Shown piece by piece: positions 13,497 through 43,052 of a DNA stretch of 43,052 nt; positions within the stretch are counted from its first letter, which is position 1, and the number at the start of each line of letters is the position of its first letter. A program made the position numbers and the translations under genes. Source of the stretch: Lentisphaeria bacterium. GTDB taxonomy: Bacteria; Verrucomicrobiota; Lentisphaeria; Victivallales; Victivallaceae. The DNA lies in assembly GCA_017457065.1 (NCBI GenBank), contig JAFTIE010000218.1, positions 1 to 43,052 of the forward strand. The letters run 5' to 3'. The notes beneath the pieces are model-generated. The model did not search any database. It was not told the DNA's origin and saw nothing but the letters and a program-made list of their open reading frames with translations.

Positions 13497-14678
13497 ATGG
13501 ATTTCAGGATGTTAAATTTTTTCAACAAACGTAAAAAGCGCAAATTTTTAAGCGAATTGCGTGCCAGACGCCATGCCGAAGATGATCTTCTGACTCCGGC
13601 GCAGAAAGAGGAGTTTGACGGCGTCATCGCCGCTTTTGCCGGTTCCGACCCCAAAGATTTCAAAAACGCCGCCGCCGCTGCCCTTGAGAAGACCGGGCGC
13701 ATCGTGCCCGGTTACACCTGGATCAGAAATCTTCTCGATCTGCTCATCGTGGTGGGCGCCGTCGCCTTCGGCATCAGGGGACTCTTTTTTCAGCCCTTCA
13801 AGATCCCCACAGGCTCCATGCAGCCCACACTTTACGGGATCCACTACATGGAAAGCACCCCCCTCGGGAAAAATCTCCCCCCGTTTCTCAATTACGCCCT
13901 TTTTTCCGCCCGGCGCGCCCGTCTGGAGGTGAAGGAGTCAGGCGAAACACTCTTTCACAGCTATAAGAACGGTTTTTTCACTGACAGCGTTCTTTTTTCC
14001 ATCGGCAATGTCCGCTACAGCCTCCCCGGAGCTCCCCAGAAGGTGATGGAGTACTCAGGATTGGAAGAGGGCGCTTCCTGCAGCGCAGGTGAGATCAAAG
14101 CCGACGGATTCCTCTCTCTGGGGGATCATCTGTTTGTGGAACGCTTTTCCATCTATCTTTCCCCCCCGAAACGGGGCGAGGTGATGATCTTTACCACCGA
14201 CGGTCTGACCGTGGGCGGAGAACCCCTGAGCGCTTCATCGGGATTTTATTATGTGAAACGTCTGGTGGCGCTCCCCGGAGATACGGTACGGCTGAAAGAA
14301 AATCAACTCTATGTGAGACCCGCAGGAGAAAAAGAGTTCCGGAAGATCCAGGCTCTTGCTCCCCGGACGGCTCGGCTCTACTCCGGCAAGGGGGGATATC
14401 AGGGACATCTGAGCACCATGGGGGATTACCGGCTTTTCGGGGCGGAAGAGGATTATACAGTGCCCCCTGACCACTATTTCATGCTGGGCGACAACTCCAA
14501 TTTCAGTCAGGACAGCCGCTTTTTCGGCGCCGTCCCCCGGCGGAACCTGGTGGGGCGCAGTCTGCTGATCTTCTGGCCCTTCAGCCGCCGCTGGGGGATC
14601 ACGGACCGACTGGAGCCTCTGGACTATCCCACAGGGAGCCCCGTCAGAGGAACCTTCCCGGTAATGTATAAGCAGTAG
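13497..14678 (+). CDS. lepB: Type I signal peptidase
   Basis: A 393-residue protein. A cytoplasmic basic N terminus is followed by one membrane segment near 80-98 (LLDLLIVVGAVAFGIRGLFF) and box B PFKIPTGSMQPTL with nucleophile Ser107. Box D YVKRLVALPGD supplies general base Lys254, and box E is FMLGDNSNFSQDSRFFGAVPRRNLVGR. It cleaves secretory signal peptides at the outer face of the cytoplasmic membrane. About 147 residues separate Ser and Lys, much more than in short family members, so there is a sizeable periplasmic insert. ATG 13497 is kept although its Shine-Dalgarno is poor; ATG 13509 is an alternative. The stop codon TAG shares its G with the first base of a MITE-like element. Confidence 0.92.
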   Translation: MDFRMLNFFNKRKKRKFLSELRARRHAEDDLLTPAQKEEFDGVIAAFAGSDPKDFKNAAAAALEKTGRIVPGYTWIRNLLDLLIVVGAVAFGIRGLFFQPFKIPTGSMQPTLYGIHYMESTPLGKNLPPFLNYALFSARRARLEVKESGETLFHSYKNGFFTDSVLFSIGNVRYSLPGAPQKVMEYSGLEEGASCSAGEIKADGFLSLGDHLFVERFSIYLSPPKRGEVMIFTTDGLTVGGEPLSASSGFYYVKRLVALPGDTVRLKENQLYVRPAGEKEFRKIQALAPRTARLYSGKGGYQGHLSTMGDYRLFGAEEDYTVPPDHYFMLGDNSNFSQDSRFFGAVPRRNLVGRSLLIFWPFSRRWGITDRLEPLDYPTGSPVRGTFPVMYKQ

Positions 14679-14843
14679 AGGCAATTTCAAAACTCCTCAA
14701 AATTGTCAAAGTGCCCTCTTCTTCGATCTGATAAAGGGAGCGTTTTCAGCTGTTACCCTGCAGGTAGCAGCTTCAAACTACCCTTTCCAGCTCTTTGCGA
14801 ATGGCATCTTTGCCATTTTTTGAATGACTTTTGAAATTACCTC
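14678..14843 (+). mobile_element. MITE-like element, copy 1
   Basis: 166 bp bounded by GAGGCAATTTCAAAA and TTTTGAAATTACCTC, which are inverted repeats with one mismatch; the match continues imperfectly inward for about 35 bp (TCAAAATTGTCAAAG against TCAAAAAATGGCAAAG). Internal palindromes include TACC CTGCA GGTA and AATGGCA TCTT TGCCATT. AGTA flanks both ends, consistent with a 4-bp target duplication. No coding capacity, so non-autonomous. About 90% or more identical to the copy at 24268. Confidence 0.8.
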
Positions 14844-16359: not shown

Positions 16360-17841
16360 ATGTCAGACGAAAACAAACCTTTGGATGCTGCGGACAGTCA
16401 GGATACCAGAACACGGAAAACTCTCAAGCTCCGTTCTGCTGCGCCAAGTACTCAGGATATCCCTGTAGCTGACCCTTTGACCAGCCGTGACACTGACACC
16501 GGCAATCTGGAGATCCTTGACGATACCCAGACCCGTAAGACTTTGAAACTCAAACCTATGTCCGCCAACGCCCCCTCCGCCGGACCCAAACTGAATCTGG
16601 GCGACACCAATACCCGGAAGACCGTTGTGCTGCGTCCTGCCTCAGCTTCAGTTGCTCCTCAGGCTCAAGCCAAACCGGGGCTTTCCATTCCGGGGGGTGT
16701 CAGTGTTGCCGCACCTGTGAATCAGGCTCCGGCTTCAGCGGTTTCCGCTCCCAAAGTTGCCGTGGACGATCAGACGGCGGCAGTGCCCCGTCCGGCAAAT
16801 GCTCCTGCGGCACTCAAGATCGAAGTTGACGATCAGTCGGGTGAAGTTCCCCGTTCTGCAGATACCTCTGCCGCACCTTCGGCAGCTCCTAAAGTCGCCG
16901 TGGACGATCAGACAGCGGCAGTGCCCCGTCCCGCCGTTGCAGCGGGGGGTGTCAAACTCTCCGGAGCGGCTCCTGCCCCTGCTGCCGATGAGGATGATCA
17001 GACCGTCAAACTTAAACGCCCCCCCCGGCTGGCACCGCCTCCTCCCCCTTCAGGAGCGGCACGTCCCCCTCTGGGCGGCGATCAGAAAGCAACAGTCAAG
17101 CTCTCAGTGAGACCCGGTACCGCCGCCGCCATGCCGGCGCCCGCCACTGTGGTTCTCGGAACTCCCCCTGCCGCTAAAACGCCTCCCGGTACGCTGCCTC
17201 TTGCGGCACCCGGAACTCCTGCCACCAAGCCCCCCGCCGGCGCTCAAGCTCCGGCAGTTACTGTGGCTCTTGCGGCACCCGGAACTCCTGGTGCCAAGCC
17301 CACCGCATCTGCCAAGGCTCCGGCACCTACTGTGGTCCTTGCTGCCACTCCCGATGCCCCCGATGCCCCCGATGCCCCCGCTGCCAAACCCTCTGCGGCA
17401 GCTGCGCCCAAGCCCCCTGCTGCAACTATTGCAGCGGCAGCACCCAAGCCGCCTACTGCGGCAGCACCCAAGCCCCCTACCGCAGCACCCAAGCCGCCTA
17501 CCGCGGCAGCACCCAAGCCCCCTGCGACCGTTGCAGCGGCAGCTGCGCCCAAAGACAAAGATAAGGACGACGATGTTGAAATTTCACTGGCTCCCAGTGC
17601 AAGGCGCAAAGAGACGGAATCTGAGGATGAAAAATCCGCTGTCGCCAAGGATGCTTCTCAGTCAAAGCTGCTGGCAAAGGAAGATGAGGAAAACAAACCC
17701 TCTGTGTTCTATCTTGCCATCGCTGTTCTTACCTTTTTGTGCGTTGCTGTCGCCGGTGTGATCACAACGGTCCATTATCTGGATTTTGAACAGCAGATCA
17801 AGATTTACGATCAGGTACCTTTCCTTCCTGTTGCGAAGTAA
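16360..17841 (+). CDS. Ala/Pro-rich repeat protein with C-terminal membrane anchor
   Basis: A 493-residue low-complexity protein. The N-terminal part has three copies of a short motif, D-T-x-T-R-K-T-(L/V)-x-L (near residues 15-24, 52-62 and 81-91). Next come copies of VDDQTAAVPRP and related VDDQSGEVPR, then a long Pro/Ala tract with KPPTAAA units (about 215-400). An acidic/basic linker and a single transmembrane segment (FYLAIAVLTFLCVAVAGVITT) lie near the C terminus. It has no signal peptide, so the long N-terminal part is probably cytoplasmic with a short C-terminal tail outside. The conserved TRKT boxes could be phosphorylation or binding sites (speculative). No known family is recognised. 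GGAAAGGA precedes ATG 16360; a terminator follows. Confidence 0.75.
   Translation: MSDENKPLDAADSQDTRTRKTLKLRSAAPSTQDIPVADPLTSRDTDTGNLEILDDTQTRKTLKLKPMSANAPSAGPKLNLGDTNTRKTVVLRPASASVAPQAQAKPGLSIPGGVSVAAPVNQAPASAVSAPKVAVDDQTAAVPRPANAPAALKIEVDDQSGEVPRSADTSAAPSAAPKVAVDDQTAAVPRPAVAAGGVKLSGAAPAPAADEDDQTVKLKRPPRLAPPPPPSGAARPPLGGDQKATVKLSVRPGTAAAMPAPATVVLGTPPAAKTPPGTLPLAAPGTPATKPPAGAQAPAVTVALAAPGTPGAKPTASAKAPAPTVVLAATPDAPDAPDAPAAKPSAAAAPKPPAATIAAAAPKPPTAAAPKPPTAAPKPPTAAAPKPPATVAAAAAPKDKDKDDDVEISLAPSARRKETESEDEKSAVAKDASQSKLLAKEDEENKPSVFYLAIAVLTFLCVAVAGVITTVHYLDFEQQIKIYDQVPFLPVAK
17353..17379 (+). repeat. Tandem 9-bp repeat GATGCCCCC x3
   Basis: Three perfect consecutive copies encoding Asp-Ala-Pro, inside the Ala/Pro-rich gene. 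Similar imperfect repeats encoding KPPTAAA follow at about 17440-17530. Likely to vary in copy number between strains. Confidence 0.85.
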
Positions 17842-20490: not shown

Positions 20491-22164
20491 ATGAAAACTC
20501 AAATGATCTTGCGATACCTTCTGCTGGCACTGCTCCTGATCTTTCTGGGAGTCTTTCTGCTGCTGCCCATCGGTACCGTGCTGGGAGTGGGGTGCGACTG
20601 GCAGCTCATCGCCGAACTTTTCCGCAACCGCATATATGTGGAAGGTCTCTGGAACAGTTTTGCCATCGCTGTATGTACCACCGGCATGGTCTTTCTCATC
20701 TCTCTGGGATTGGCTCTGCTCTATGACCGCTACGATTTTCCCGGCAAGGCTTTTGCCAACACGGCACTGCTGATCCCCATGGTACTGCCCCCCTTCGTGG
20801 GCGCTCTGGGATTCAAACAGCTTCTGGGATATCACGGCGTCTTCAATGCACTTCTGGGACATCTGGGGATCGCTCCCATAGATTTCCTCAGCGGCAGCGG
20901 CGTTTTCTGGGCGGTCTGCTTTATTGAAGCGCTCCACCTTTTCCCCATCTGCTACCTCAATCTGGTGACGGCTCTGGGGAACATCGACCCTGCCATGAGT
21001 GAAGCCGCCGCCAATCTGGGGGCAACTCCCTGGCAGCGTTTTCTGAAGGTCCGGCTGCCCCTTATGCGTTCAGGGATCCTTGCGGGGTGCTCCATCACAT
21101 TGATCTGGAGCTTTACGGAACTGGGAACGCCCCTCATGTTCGGATTCACCCGTACCACGGCGGTGCAGGTTTTCAACGGACTTACCGAACTTGAAAGCAA
21201 CCCCATCCCCTACGCGCTGGTGGTCATCATGCTGGCGGTGTCGGCGCTTCTTTACCTCATTGCCAAGGCGGCGCTCAAAAGTTCCCCTGCCGCTTCGGGG
21301 GGCAAAGGGATCATCAACTCAGGGTGCATCCCTTTACATTCGTGGCGCAAATTTCTCCCCGGGACCGCCTTCGGTGTGGTGACGCTCCTTGCGGGACTGC
21401 CCCACATCGCTCTCATCTGCTGTGCCTTTTCAACAAGGTACAGCGGAACGGTCTTTCCTGAGAACTTTACTTTGGAAAACTTTCAGCTGGCTCTTTCAAA
21501 CGCTCTGGTGCTGCCCTCCATCGCCAACAGTTTGAAATACTCCTTCCTCGCCATGTTCATCGCCTGTGCCGCAGGACTTCTGGTGGCTCTTGCGGCGGTG
21601 CGCTGGCGCCTCAAAGGCAGCGGTATCGCCGACATGCTTGCTATGCTGCCTCTGGCGGTGCCGGGAGTGGTCTTTGCCTTCGGATTTCTGGGCATGTCGG
21701 TGAAATTCAGCTGGGCGTCACTCCTCTTTGATCCGGTGAACGATCCGGTGTGGCTTTTGAGTATCGCTTACGCCGTGCGCCGCATCCCCTACGTTGTCCG
21801 TGCAGTCTCCTCAGGGCTGGAGCAGACTCCTGAAGAGCTTGAAAACGCCGCCAGAAACTTCGGGGCAGGTCCTTTCAGGACTCTTGTGAAGATCACACTG
21901 CCTCTGGTGACGGCAAATCTGATCGTGGGAGGGCTCTTTGCTTTCAGCTTTTCCATGCTCGAAGTGTCGGATTCACTGATCCTTGCTCAGAAACAGGAGT
22001 TCTTCCCCATAACCAAGGCCCTCTTTGAACTTTCCCAGATCCTCGGATACGGCACCGGCGCCGCCAGCGCCTTCGGCGTCTGGGCAATGTTCTTCCTGGG
22101 AGCCACATTATGCGCCGGAGCTCTGCTTCTCGGGAAAAAAATCGGAGCAGTCTTCAAATTTTAA
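20491..22164 (+). CDS. ABC importer permease, two-domain fused (FbpB-like)
   Basis: A 557-residue membrane protein with about 12 transmembrane segments, built from two homologous halves. Each half has the cytoplasmic EAA loop that docks on the ATPase: SEAAANLGATPWQRFLKVRLP near residue 170 (split by Leu-rich helices) and ENAARNFGAGPFRTLVKITLP near 450. Fused permeases of this type go with Fe3+ or related importers. It completes the three-gene transporter (ATPase, binding protein, permease), with 16 bp from the previous stop and AAGGAAG as ribosome-binding site. Confidence 0.9.
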   Translation: MKTQMILRYLLLALLLIFLGVFLLLPIGTVLGVGCDWQLIAELFRNRIYVEGLWNSFAIAVCTTGMVFLISLGLALLYDRYDFPGKAFANTALLIPMVLPPFVGALGFKQLLGYHGVFNALLGHLGIAPIDFLSGSGVFWAVCFIEALHLFPICYLNLVTALGNIDPAMSEAAANLGATPWQRFLKVRLPLMRSGILAGCSITLIWSFTELGTPLMFGFTRTTAVQVFNGLTELESNPIPYALVVIMLAVSALLYLIAKAALKSSPAASGGKGIINSGCIPLHSWRKFLPGTAFGVVTLLAGLPHIALICCAFSTRYSGTVFPENFTLENFQLALSNALVLPSIANSLKYSFLAMFIACAAGLLVALAAVRWRLKGSGIADMLAMLPLAVPGVVFAFGFLGMSVKFSWASLLFDPVNDPVWLLSIAYAVRRIPYVVRAVSSGLEQTPEELENAARNFGAGPFRTLVKITLPLVTANLIVGGLFAFSFSMLEVSDSLILAQKQEFFPITKALFELSQILGYGTGAASAFGVWAMFFLGATLCAGALLLGKKIGAVFKF

Positions 22165-22187
22165 AACCTCAAACGAAAGGTATGAAA

Positions 22188-23102
22188 ATGAAAAAACTCT
22201 TTATCCTCTCTGCCGCACTCTTTTGTGCGGTCTCCCTTTCAGCCAAAGAGCTGAAGGTCCTCATGATCGGCAACAGCTTTTCCAACAGCGTCCAGGTCCA
22301 TTTGCCCAAAGTTGTAAAAGCCTCAGGAAAGCACAGACTGATACTGGGGAGCGCCTCCATCGGCAGCTGCACTTTTGAGCGCCACTGTGCCAACATCGAC
22401 AAAGAGCAGAAGGATCCCAAATTCAAAGCCTACCGTTTCGCCTGTACCGGGGAAAAGAGCCGCCCGGAAAGTGTGACCTTTGCTCTCAAATACAAAAAGT
22501 GGGACATCGTCACCATCCAGCAGGCAAGTGGCTACAGCTACCTGAAAGAAAAGACCCTTGCTCCTGCGGCAAAACTTATTGCCTACATCAAAAAACTTGC
22601 TCCTCAGGCGGAGATCGTCATCCAGCAGACCTGGGCATGGCGTACTGACTTCAGGAAATTCCACTCCCAAAAGGAAAAGCTCACTCAGGAAATGATGTAC
22701 AAAGGTCTGGTGGAAAACTACAACGAGCTTGCAAAGATCCACAAACTGCGTATCATCCCTGTGGGGACTGCGGTCCAGCTCTTCCGTCAGAAACTTCCCG
22801 TCAAGAGTGTGAAGTACACCCAAGAGCAGATCGATGCCCTCAAAGAGCCCAGGGTCATGGATCTTACCGGCGGCGATGTGGTGGGCTGGATGCGCTGGGT
22901 GAAAAACAAAAAGAAACCCGGAAAATCCATCTACATCGACGCCGCTCACCTCAACAACAAAGGAACATACTTGCAGGGATGTGTCTGGTACATGGTTCTT
23001 TTCGATGAACCTGTCAGCTCCATCAAACTGCCCTTCAAAGATAAAAGCCGTGCTCTGCTCCTTCAGTGCGCTGACGAAGCGGTCAAACAATACAAAAAAT
23101 AA
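22188..23102 (+). CDS. DUF4886 (SGNH-like) secreted protein A
   Basis: 304 residues from ATG 22188, chosen because GAAAGG (22175-22180) lies 7 bp upstream and the sequence starts with a clean signal peptide (MKKLFILSAALFCAVSLSA); ATG 22182 is possible. The mature part begins KELKVLMIGNSFSNS, the block I Gly-Asn-Ser of SGNH-fold hydrolases (Ser as nucleophile). It contains WDIVTIQQASG and ends with YIDAAHLNNKGTYLQGC, giving the Asp-x-x-His pair. DUF4886 proteins are putative esterases acting on glycans; the substrate is unknown. It is the first of two tandem paralogues, 23 bp after the permease gene and possibly co-transcribed with it. Confidence 0.82.
   Translation: MKKLFILSAALFCAVSLSAKELKVLMIGNSFSNSVQVHLPKVVKASGKHRLILGSASIGSCTFERHCANIDKEQKDPKFKAYRFACTGEKSRPESVTFALKYKKWDIVTIQQASGYSYLKEKTLAPAAKLIAYIKKLAPQAEIVIQQTWAWRTDFRKFHSQKEKLTQEMMYKGLVENYNELAKIHKLRIIPVGTAVQLFRQKLPVKSVKYTQEQIDALKEPRVMDLTGGDVVGWMRWVKNKKKPGKSIYIDAAHLNNKGTYLQGCVWYMVLFDEPVSSIKLPFKDKSRALLLQCADEAVKQYKK
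22242..22293 (+). repeat. 52-nt perfect direct repeat shared by the DUF4886 paralogues
   Basis: Identical to 23172-23223; both encode the start of the mature domain around KELKVLMIGNSFSNS, while flanking codons have diverged. Consistent with duplication plus local gene conversion. Confidence 0.85.
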
Positions 23103-23114
23103 GGAAACAACAGG

Positions 23115-24032
23115 ATGAAAAAAATTTCTGCCGTCGCTCTTCTCCTTTGCTGCGGGTTTTTCACTCTCAGCGCCAAAGAGCTGAAGGTCCTCATGATCGG
23201 CAACAGCTTTTCCAACAGCGTCCTCCGGTATTTACCCAAACTGGTGGAAGCCGGGAAGGTTCACAAACTCAAACTCGCCAACGCCTACATCGGCGGATGC
23301 ACTCTGGAGCGCCACTGCTCCAACATCGATGCCGAAAAAAGCAAACCTGATTTCAAGCCCTACTCCTATGTCATCGTGGGCGCCAAAGGCCGCAAAGCCA
23401 AGCTCTCTGAAATGATCAAAGACGACAAGTGGGACATCATCACCATCCAGCAGGGCAGCCGCCACAGCCCCTATAAGGAGAAAACCCACGATTACGCCAA
23501 AAAACTTATCGCTTTTGTGAAAAAGCTTGCTCCCCAGGCGGAGATCGTGGTCCATCAGACCTGGGCATACCGTGCCGATCACCCCTGGTTCACCGGAAAA
23601 GATGCCAAACTCACCCGTCAGAAGATGCACGAAATGCTCACTGCCAACTACACCGGACTTGCCAAAGCCCACAAGTTCCGTATGATCCCCGTGGGCAATG
23701 CGGTGCAGCTTTTCCGTGAAAAGCTCCCCGTCAAGGAGGTAAAGTACACCCCTGCCGATCTGAAAAAGCTCAAACAGCCTGCCGTCATTGATGTCACCGG
23801 CGGCGATGTGGTGGGCAAGATGAGCTGGAAAATAAACCGCAATACCAAAAAAACTGCTCTTTCCAACGACCGTATCCACCTCAACGACAAGGGAGCATTC
23901 CTCCAGGGATGCGTCTGGTACATGGTTCTCTTTGATGCCAAAGCTTCTGATATCAAACTGCCCTGCCAGAGCCCTGACGCCAAACTGCTCATCAAATGCG
24001 CCGAAGAAGCTGTCACAGCTTTGAAAAAATAA
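23115..24032 (+). CDS. DUF4886 (SGNH-like) secreted protein B
   Basis: A 305-residue tandem paralogue of the preceding gene, 12 bp downstream. It has a signal peptide (MKKISAVALLLCCGFFTLSA), KELKVLMIGNSFSNSVLRYLP with the GNS block, WDIITIQQGSRHS, VVHQTWAYR, and C-terminal DRIHLNDKGAFLQGCVWYMVLF with Asp and His of the presumed triad. By eye a little over half the residues are shared with copy A. AAGGAAACAACAGG precedes the ATG. The 3' end is followed 3 bp later by a MITE-like element. Confidence 0.82.
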   Translation: MKKISAVALLLCCGFFTLSAKELKVLMIGNSFSNSVLRYLPKLVEAGKVHKLKLANAYIGGCTLERHCSNIDAEKSKPDFKPYSYVIVGAKGRKAKLSEMIKDDKWDIITIQQGSRHSPYKEKTHDYAKKLIAFVKKLAPQAEIVVHQTWAYRADHPWFTGKDAKLTRQKMHEMLTANYTGLAKAHKFRMIPVGNAVQLFREKLPVKEVKYTPADLKKLKQPAVIDVTGGDVVGKMSWKINRNTKKTALSNDRIHLNDKGAFLQGCVWYMVLFDAKASDIKLPCQSPDAKLLIKCAEEAVTALKK

Positions 24033-24035
24033 GTT

Positions 24036-24265
24036 GAGGCAATTTCAAAACTCCTTAAAATTGTCAAAGCGCTCTCTTCTTCGATCTGATAAAGGGAGCG
24101 TTTTTCCGCCTTCCCATAAAGCTGCGGCGGGACAAGCACCTGTTACCTTTCCCCCTCCGCATAAAGCTACGGCGGGACAAGCCAGGCAGCATGTGCAAAC
24201 TACCCTTTACAGCTCTTTGCGAATGGCATCGAAAGCCATTTTTTGAATGACTTTTGAAATTACCG
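24036..24265 (+). mobile_element. MITE-like element, copy 2 (expanded)
   Basis: About 230 bp. It has the same left end (GAGGCAATTTCAAAA) and a right end TTTTGAAATTACCGC. The middle is replaced by two near-identical 23-bp units, at 24115-24137 and 24160-24182 (CATAAAGCT-R-CGGCGGGACAAGC), each closing a GC-rich stem. Near the right end, AATGGC ATCGAAA GCCATT keeps a stem while its loop differs from copy 1. It abuts copy 3 in the same orientation, and it starts 3 bp after the DUF4886 stop. Confidence 0.78.
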
Positions 24266-24267
24266 CT

Positions 24268-24432
24268 GAGGCAATTTCAAAACTCCTCAAAATTGTCAAA
24301 GCGCCCTCGCTTCGATCTGTTAAAGGGAGCGTTTTCGGCTGTTACCTTGCAGGTAGCAACCTCAAACTACCCTTTACAGCTCTTTGCGAATGACATCTTT
24401 GCCATTTTTTGAATGACTTTTGAAATTACCTC
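24268..24432 (+). mobile_element. MITE-like element, copy 3
   Basis: 165 bp, complete with both terminal inverted repeats (GAGGCAATTTCAAAA and TTTTGAAATTACCTC), closely matching copy 1 at 14678. It lies directly after copy 2 in the same orientation, so the pair is a tandem array. The outer flanks of the pair share GTT (24033-24035 and 24433-24435). Confidence 0.8.
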
Positions 24433-38786: not shown

Positions 38787-39680
38787 ATGAAACATTTCTC
38801 GAAAAGATCCCTCTCTGACGGTCTGCAGAGCAGTAAACGCTCCGGCAGATTCACGCTGATCGAACTTCTGGTGAGTGTAACTTGTCAAATAGGTGTTTTG
38901 CCGTTGTATTACCTCAAGAAACAATCAAAAAAAATGCCTTATAATGCTTGCGAAGCAAGCGCTTCATGCACTGAAAGTGCGCTTCATATTTTCCGCAGGA
39001 AAATGCTTCATACGGCGGAGCCGTGCTTCATTCGATCAGCGTTCACGCTGATCGAACTATTGGTTGTGATCGCAATAATTGCCATTCTTGCCGCCATGTT
39101 GCTGCCCGCTCTGCAGCAAGCACGGGCAAGAGCCCGGGAAACCGCCTGTATGAACACCCTTTCCCAGCTGGGGAAATACTGGACCATGTATATTGACCAG
39201 TACCACAATGTTCCCAAATACAACCCTTCCAATGATACCAGCTGGTCTGTCAAGATCGGTGAATACATCGAACCCAATAGCAACAACAGCTTTTTCCGGA
39301 TCTACAAGACGGGAAAGCGGGGGAAATTCACCTGCAGTGACTGGATCACCTGGCGTCCTCCGTCAAGCATGACTTACGATTATGAGACCGGCTGGGGGTA
39401 CAATGTGACCATCAACTCATCTACTACCTCAAGTTATTACAGAAAATGCACCTTCCCCACCCGTCTCATGCTCATGAGCGACGGCCGTGCCAATATCAAC
39501 GGCGTGGAAACCGCGACCATGACCAATTTTTTCTATCTTCACAGCGGCAAGGCAAATATGCTTTTCTTTGACGGTCACGCCGCCGCCCGCCGTCCGGGAA
39601 CATTCCGCACCAACGGGGGACTTTCACCCTTCTGGATCCCCACGCTCCCCGGGAACTACTACCACAACAGAACAGATTGA
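38787..39680 (+). CDS. Prepilin-type pseudopilin with hairpin element in its leader
   Basis: A complete 297-residue gene. The native N terminus is [21 protein letters not shown], followed by FTLIELLV (38850-38873). The inserted 64-codon unit comes next, then a second FTLIELLV (39042-39065) that leads into [23 protein letters not shown], the genuine pilin helix. Cleavage before Phe at 39042 (context RSA/FTLIE) gives a mature protein of about 212 residues; cleavage at the first site would leave [16 protein letters not shown] instead of a helix. The C terminus has [20 protein letters not shown] (H-X9-DG type). It probably forms part of a type II secretion-like pseudopilus. It lies 62 bp upstream of the DUF4838 protein and may be dedicated to its export or display (inference). 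Confidence 0.88.
38850..39041 (+). repeat. 192-bp hairpin-array unit, copy 2
   Basis: Same length and register as copy 1. Hairpins: GCTTGC/GCAAGC (38946-38960, loop GAA), GCACT/AGTGC (38968-38980, loop GAA), ATTTTCC/GGAAAAT (38988-39004, loop GCA), ACGGC/GCCGT (39012-39024, loop GGA). Each is followed by GCTTCAT. The fifth hairpin (39032-39055) uses the downstream TLIE codons. The third stem has T-A where copy 1 has G-C, changed on both arms. Confidence 0.9.
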
Positions 39681-42804: not shown

Positions 42805-43052
42805 ATGAGTAGAATTTTCCGGAAAGATGTTTCCCTGACGGTTCCGGCTGCCCGCAGCGGGCGCCCTGCCGGAAAAGCGTTTACGTTGATCGAACTGCTG
42901 GTGAGTAAAACTTGTCAAACAGGTGTTTTTCCGTTGTATTACCTGAAAAAAGAGAACAAAAAAATGCCTTATTATGCTTGCGAAGCAAGCGCTTCATGCC
43001 CCAACGGGGCGCTTCATATTTTCCGCAGGAAAATGCTTCATACGGCGGAGCC
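42805..43052 (+). CDS. Prepilin-type pseudopilin (3' partial) with hairpin element in its leader
   Basis: ATG 42805 is 9 bp after AGGAG (42791-42795). The encoded start is MSRIFRKDVSLTVPAARSG, then RPAGKA and FTLIELLV (42880-42903), then the repeat unit (KTCQTGVFPLYYLKK...) up to the window edge. By analogy with the complete gene at 38787, the genuine pilin helix should begin at about 43072, outside the window. It has its own promoter and follows a terminator-like hairpin, so it probably begins another pseudopilin-CAZyme operon. Confidence 0.85.
   Translation, partial: MSRIFRKDVSLTVPAARSGRPAGKAFTLIELLVSKTCQTGVFPLYYLKKENKKMPYYACEASASCPNGALHIFRRKMLHTAE
42880..43052 (+). repeat. 192-bp hairpin-array unit, copy 3 (truncated by window edge)
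   Basis: Most diverged copy. Hairpins: GCTTGC/GCAAGC (42976-42990, loop GAA), GCCCC/GGGGC (42998-43010, loop AAC), ATTTTCC/GGAAAAT (43018-43034, loop GCA), and the start of ACGGC/GCC (43042-). The GCTTCAT spacers at 42991, 43011 and 43035 are identical to the other copies. The second stem differs from copies 1 and 2 at three positions of each arm, with pairing kept. Confidence 0.88.

Follow-up and report, generated by a model that had tools for sequence, protein, structure and literature searches.

A chain of hairpins inside prepilin-like genes of a gut Lentisphaeria bacterium, probably the body of a short site-specific mobile element

Four described systems come closest to the hairpin array analysed here. 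The Gut-1 RNA (Rfam RF01706), which Weinberg et al. (2010; PMC2864571) reported from the human gut, has been described only as an orphan, intergenic noncoding motif, and within the open-licence papers that we searched it does not reappear beyond that 2010 description. Rickettsia palindromic elements (RPEs; Ogata 2000, 2002) are selfish palindromic DNA of about 150 bp found in frame within protein genes, where they are translated (PMC10969869). Intervening sequences of 23S rRNA genes with S23/IVP, such as the Coxiella IVS (PMC4990558), place an S23 gene beside hairpin DNA at a structural RNA gene. REP/BIME sequences and MITEs are short, non-autonomous, hairpin-rich repeats.

The array resembles each of these systems in part. 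Like Gut-1, it consists of short hairpins, three of which are joined by a conserved 7-nt linker; however, the Gut-1 consensus linker GUGAAAU differs by at least two letters from the AUGAAGC found on the same strand of the array, and the arrays also lie inside protein genes. Compared by description only, it is like an RPE in lying in frame and open within protein genes (30 of 30 inserts). RPEs enter many unrelated genes, whereas this element targets one codon motif in one gene class (39 of 40 interior copies precede FTLIE codons), carries a replacement for that motif and has a multi-hairpin array as its body. S23 genes beside hairpin DNA at a structural RNA gene are also found here, but at the 3′ ends of tRNA genes, with an array of repeated hairpins and with prepilin copies that have no S23 gene. 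Unlike REP/BIME sequences and MITEs, which it matches in being short, non-autonomous and rich in hairpins, the element yielded neither a matching transposase nor terminal inverted repeats accompanied by a target duplication, and its target is coding and motif-specific. Inserts in prepilin genes were absent from the open-licence literature searched, and a 2026 paper on reverse-complement triplets, which included Victivallis, did not describe a prepilin hairpin-array element.

The window, 43,052 nucleotides in length, is contig C188 of a 3.5-Mb genome (272 contigs, 90% complete) from a gut Lentisphaeria bacterium, hereafter the source genome, and was compared with Lentisphaeria/Victivallis MAGs, hereafter relatives or genus mates. 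It holds three copies of the element (115-297, 38873-39055 and 42903-43052), all on the + strand and each in a prepilin-like gene of the same orientation. Gene 1 (2-946) runs past the contig start. Its translation matches Pfam N_methyl (PF07963) at residues 93-115 and contains two stacked insertions ahead of its last FTLIELLV-type motif. The downstream insertion is copy 1, delimited by codon entropy. It adjoins 5′ FTLIELLV codons at 92-114 and comprises a 5′ module (115-187), four hairpins (188-202, 210-222, 230-246 and 254-266) and a terminal hairpin (274-297) whose right arm consists of FTLIE codons. The upstream insertion, of which the window has the 3′ end (1-105, + strand), belongs to a second array class with ACTTCAC/TCTTCAC spacers and shows a hairpin at 33-58 and a terminal hairpin at 82-105; this spacer class is that of arrays in the tRNA-Ser/S23 type-B elements. 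Gene 2 (38787-39680, 297 aa) hosts copy 2, with host 5′ FTLIELLV codons at 38850-38872, hairpins at 38946-38960, 38968-38980, 38988-39004 and 39012-39024 and a terminal hairpin at 39032-39055. Gene 3, which starts at the ATG at 42805, and its copy 3 are both truncated by the contig end at 43052. Copy 3 retains hairpins at 42976-42990, 42998-43010 and 43018-43034, and a fourth begins at 43042. The region at 42998-43034 that drew attention to the array spans hairpin 2 (GCCCCAACGGGGC), the spacer GCTTCAT and hairpin 3 (ATTTTCCGCAGGAAAAT) of this copy. Neither the translation of the array inside prepilin genes nor its probable nature as a mobile insertion featured in the preliminary description of this DNA.

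Every copy in a prepilin gene sits within the codons for FTLIELLV, the prepilin-peptidase cleavage motif, and both Pfam N_methyl and TIGR02532 match the second such motif, downstream of the insertion. The source genome has 127 prepilin-motif sites. In a sample of 30 prepilin genes, inserts of one class or another were seen in 21, some of them stacked (L147, L153 and L068). All 30 inserts measured from FTLIELL to FTLIELL are open and multiples of 3 in length (108, 156, 177, 189 or 192 nt). Interior copies run into FTLIE codons in 39 of 40 cases, the exception being an array at tRNA-Pro. The downstream TTCACGCTGATYGA is nearly uniform (codon entropy 0.97 bits), whereas the host 5′ copy (5.0 bits) is as varied as the motif in uninserted genes (5.1 bits); the element therefore brings its own FTLIE codons, which double as the right arm of the terminal hairpin. 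Gene 2 has orthologues in two genus mates, at 79% identity and with the upstream gene conserved; these contain one intact motif and no insert, and thus represent the empty site in synteny. At the 3′ junction a clean target duplication was not found, the LLV codons of the two motif copies being equal, by eye, in about 2 of 15 cases. The source genome contains 55 array-start matches and 100 GCTTCAT triplet matches, the latter against 0 for a reversed-pattern control. We put the element at roughly 40-55 copies there, both near-identical and diverged, an approximate figure with many copies truncated by contig ends.

We consider it probable that the array forms the body of a mobile element of ~183 bp that is non-autonomous and site-specific and is selected for a folded strand. 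In prepilin genes, such an element would insert behind the FTLIELLV codons with the reading frame kept, and the FTLIE codons in its terminal hairpin would rebuild the prepilin-peptidase motif downstream. Judging from the position of the rebuilt motif, the peptidase would remove leader and insert together, and the mature pilin should stay unchanged. The host would tolerate the element, and the rebuilt site would be open to further insertions, which would explain the stacked copies. Propagation would involve the folding of one strand into a chain of small hairpins joined by the conserved 7-nt linker, which reads GCTTCAT or, on the opposite strand, ATGAAGC. We infer that folding is needed for movement, in which case sequences would be expected to drift while stems stay paired. 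If this is true, a selfish insert is in effect excised at the protein level, and an element can persist within protein genes because its landing site is one at which a protease would cut it off.

The open and in-frame state of all 30 inserts would also fit selection on the translated leader peptide, with the pairing in the DNA as a by-product. This is very unlikely. The paired changes turn SCTES into SCPNG and HICRRQ into HIFRRK in the peptide, a copy at L061 that lacks one whole hairpin unit has its array read in a different frame and is still open, and arrays also occur in noncoding DNA beside tRNA genes.

The preliminary description had reported paired changes in the stems of the hairpin array, and its three examples are all present in the window. 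Hairpin 2 reads GCACTGAAAGTGC at 210-222 and 38968-38980 versus GCCCCAACGGGGC at 42998-43010, and hairpin 3 reads ATTTGCCGCAGGCAAAT at 230-246 versus ATTTTCCGCAGGAAAAT at 38988-39004 and 43018-43034. The terminal hairpins do have the arms TCAATCAGCG/CGCTGATTGA at 82-105 and TCGATCAGCG/CGCTGATCGA at 274-297, but they belong to different array types and their right arm also encodes FTLIE (CTG ATC/ATT GAA, with a synonymous Ile change), so this example is weak on its own. The accompanying statement that the 7-nt spacers never vary proved incorrect: GCTTCAC, ACTTCAT and TCTTCAC occur elsewhere, and the array at 1-105 has ACTTCAC/TCTTCAC. Every one of the quoted examples goes back to a single evolutionary event, not several, in close copies, as would be expected if a few chance double changes had been inherited by many related copies.

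An alignment of 56 homologous arrays (44 distinct) from the source genome and genus mates covers five hairpins in 112 nt and is gapless. Pairing is kept in 98.1% of 1452 stem cells; shuffling the columns lowers this to 93.0 ± 0.4%, and sliding the arms by 1-3 lowers it to 27-46%. Cells changed on both sides number 87 (shuffles 34, slid arms 0-8), with two-sided changes at nine stem pairs, and the covariation score is 0.168 (shuffles 0.078, slid arms 0.017-0.045). Against a null that holds the tree and the substitutions per column (100 runs), both arms changed on the same branch 9 times versus a null mean of 1.7 and a maximum of 6, and 96.8% of cells are Watson-Crick versus a null mean of 84.9% and a maximum of 89.6%. 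With these values, and with many different stems involved across genera, an artefact of relatedness is highly improbable. Among 990 pairs of variable columns the top two are the stem pairs 26/34 (E 0.04) and 48/56 (E 0.06; 0-based columns), and stem pairs hold ranks 1, 2, 4, 8, 9 and 11. The covariation check that had been proposed thus returns an excess of paired changes over the tree null, but the closeness of the copies leaves a single column pair at E < 0.05.

The preliminary description also held that each arm change is matched on the other arm, and named one-arm changes as frequent as two-arm changes as the finding that would speak against it. Matching is indeed usual, but only half of the expectation was borne out: of 51 branch events at stem pairs, 9 changed both arms and ~42 one arm. 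Since one-arm branches outnumber same-branch doubles, the arms of a stem do mutate singly, and the change is later compensated or lost. The folded shape is kept rather than the sequence, and it is the folded strand that is conserved. Of the earlier proposal of selection on, or copying through, a folded strand, the retention of pairing beyond relatedness stands; these data do not separate selection from templated copying, or RNA from ssDNA.

Among individual hairpin units, we catalogued 145 distinct ones bounded by GCTTCA(T/C). Where two units differ at two stem positions, the positions fall on one base pair in 75/103 comparisons of 13-mers, 45/45 of 14-mers, 22/24 of 17-mers and 18/18 of 23-mers, against 5-11% by chance. 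The excess persists in disjoint comparisons (about 25 paired versus 8 unpaired). Palindromes might be maintained at the DNA level without selection, by template switching at hairpins or by gene conversion or swapping of hairpin cassettes. Stem and loop often change jointly (GCACTGAAAGTGC versus GCCCCAACGGGGC), prepilin and tRNA arrays have hairpin units in common, and in units with one defect G.T (11) and A.C (7) are about equal, next to 9 transversions, all of which would agree with such upkeep. We nevertheless regard it as unlikely, given the stepwise intermediates within one stem: GCACTGAAAGTGC, GCACTGAAAGTAC and GTACTGAAAGTAC form a series with a one-arm intermediate and the completed pair, and the sets ACACTGAAAGTGC and ACACTGAAAGTGT, and TCGATCAACG/CGCTGATCGA and TCGATCAACG/CGTTGATCGA, likewise show intermediates next to completed pairs. 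Moreover, loop letters vary within a stem class while G..A is kept, which templating alone would not predict; with the stem ACGGC, the middle letter of the loop is any of the four bases (GAA, GCA, GGA, GTA).

The loops also bear on which strand folds. On the sense strand, GNA makes up 26 of 53 clean triloops and GNNA 19 of 26 tetraloops, mostly with a C-G closing pair, and loops of these kinds give exceptionally stable DNA mini-hairpins (PMC4686876). This preference points to the coding strand, without proving DNA. With DNA parameters the + strand folds better in 42 of 44 arrays, but half of the effect is present in stem- and loop-shuffled controls. The contrast between DNA and RNA folding was dropped as a decisive argument, as these controls show much of the difference to be generic.

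If the array were instead a structured RNA, either a noncoding RNA of the Gut-1 kind or an mRNA leader, its pairing would be selected as RNA and its spread in prepilin genes would be secondary. The reverse strand of the array aligns with Gut-1 over its full length (model positions 1-77, all stems), with a common layout of hairpin, linker and hairpin, and the arrays directly 3′ of tRNA genes are probably co-transcribed with them. Scores are highest in a genus mate (39.0 bits), followed by L281 (33.8), L280 (30.1) and the window copies (25.2 and 24.9). All of them lie below the gathering score of 50, and the arrays are therefore Gut-1-like rather than members of the family. Selection as RNA should favour G.U, yet G.U-type defects (11) do not clearly exceed A.C (7). 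The preferred GNA/GNNA loops belong to the opposite, coding strand. Under RNA parameters the minimum free energy (MFE) fold contains just 0.69 of the supported pairs, with pair probability below that of stem-shuffled controls. We thus consider a structured RNA rather unlikely.

Beyond prepilin genes, GCTTCAT arrays lie directly 3′ of genes for tRNA-His, Pro, Gln, Phe, Leu, Ser, Arg, Val and Asp. On the tRNA side, a TTTTTTTGCC...GGCAAAAAAA palindrome follows immediately after CCA, and then come the array and an S23 gene (PF05635, E 2.5e-25; TIGR02436). A tRNA gene is found just upstream in 15 of 20 S23 loci of the same genus, while S23 genes of other genera show no spacer-type arrays and little tRNA linkage. 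S23 proteins of the MEKSSNKLVDLSV type accompany GCTTCAT arrays and those of the MAESKLRTLSV type accompany TCTTCAC arrays; these two spacer classes are those found in prepilin inserts, including the one at 1-105 of the window. No S23 gene was found in prepilin inserts (108-192 bp), only in the tRNA-side elements. These tRNA-side elements with their S23 (IVP, four-helix) genes may be present or past autonomous partners of the prepilin copies.

In full, the tRNA gene is followed by the TTTTTTTGCC palindrome, the hairpin array, an ATGAAGC array opposing it and the S23 four-helix gene, as seen at L280:251-1000, at L114 and L347 (both source genome contig C106) and at L346 (source genome contig C191).

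Three candidate mobilisers (PF00078, PF01797 and PF05635) were profiled in 100 relatives, and no mobilising enzyme was found. Within the genus, genomes with arrays tend to have S23 as well (16/5/3/9, Fisher p 0.009, uncorrected for kinship and MAG incompleteness), yet both S23 copies of the source genome are broken, which counts against S23 as a mobiliser there. Reverse transcriptase (PF00078) has no match in the source genome, which is 90% complete, and is missing in 14 of 21 array-bearing genus mates. The Y1 transposase (PF01797) is present in 9 of these 21. Neither family tracks the arrays significantly in the 100 relatives, and both were set aside. The presence of Y1 in those nine genomes, together with a fixed motif at the hairpin foot that resembles the REP layout, would suit a REP/RAYT-type element with a Y1 (TnpA-REP) transposase as its mobiliser. 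Such an element is quite improbable, as Y1 is missing in the other 12 genus mates, the source genome, which has most copies, gives a weak match only (E 2.7e-5), and the insertions go into one particular protein motif, not into intergenic space. Searches of phages and plasmids gave no match to the element; a pattern scan of viral contigs returned 80 loci, none with palindromic units, and these were taken as chance matches.

Taking the site-specific element as the preferred reading, we suggest tentatively that it may represent a new class of mobile element, with an array that folds as ssDNA or RNA and is related to Gut-1 and S23 elements, that homes to the prepilin-peptidase motif and whose translated insert is removed with the leader by a host protease. 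If right, this would join the orphan Gut-1 motif, the S23/IVP proteins and in-frame selfish DNA, which are unlinked in the open-licence papers searched. With roughly 40-55 copies and a clean covariation signal, the role of a Gut-1-like array becomes directly testable.

Other insert classes occur at the same motif. A 108-bp class (KRSHLCCDR...GQVKLYS) has its own terminal hairpin ahead of FTLIE and seven distinct copies (L098, L134, L141, L142, L145, L153 and L155). Genus mates (L070, L071, L076-L078 and L091) have further FTLIELLV insert classes (VVIAQYCRNHVKVL..., VVTSQHCRDFFKRF... and PAARTAARTAGRGE...IPLFLKEKGG), often stacked.

The window also contains repeats of other kinds. A dispersed repeat unrelated to the element (AGTAGAGGCAATTTCAAAACTCC... 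with GCCATTTTTTGAATGACTTTTGAAATTACC) is present in three window copies, within 14674-14843 and 24032-24432. Tandem gene duplicates 930 bp apart, with stretches 75-86% identical, occupy 22110-24032, and tandem repeats (GCAGCACCCAAGCCNCCT units) at 16747-17547 lie within a gene that encodes an Ala/Pro/Lys-rich protein.
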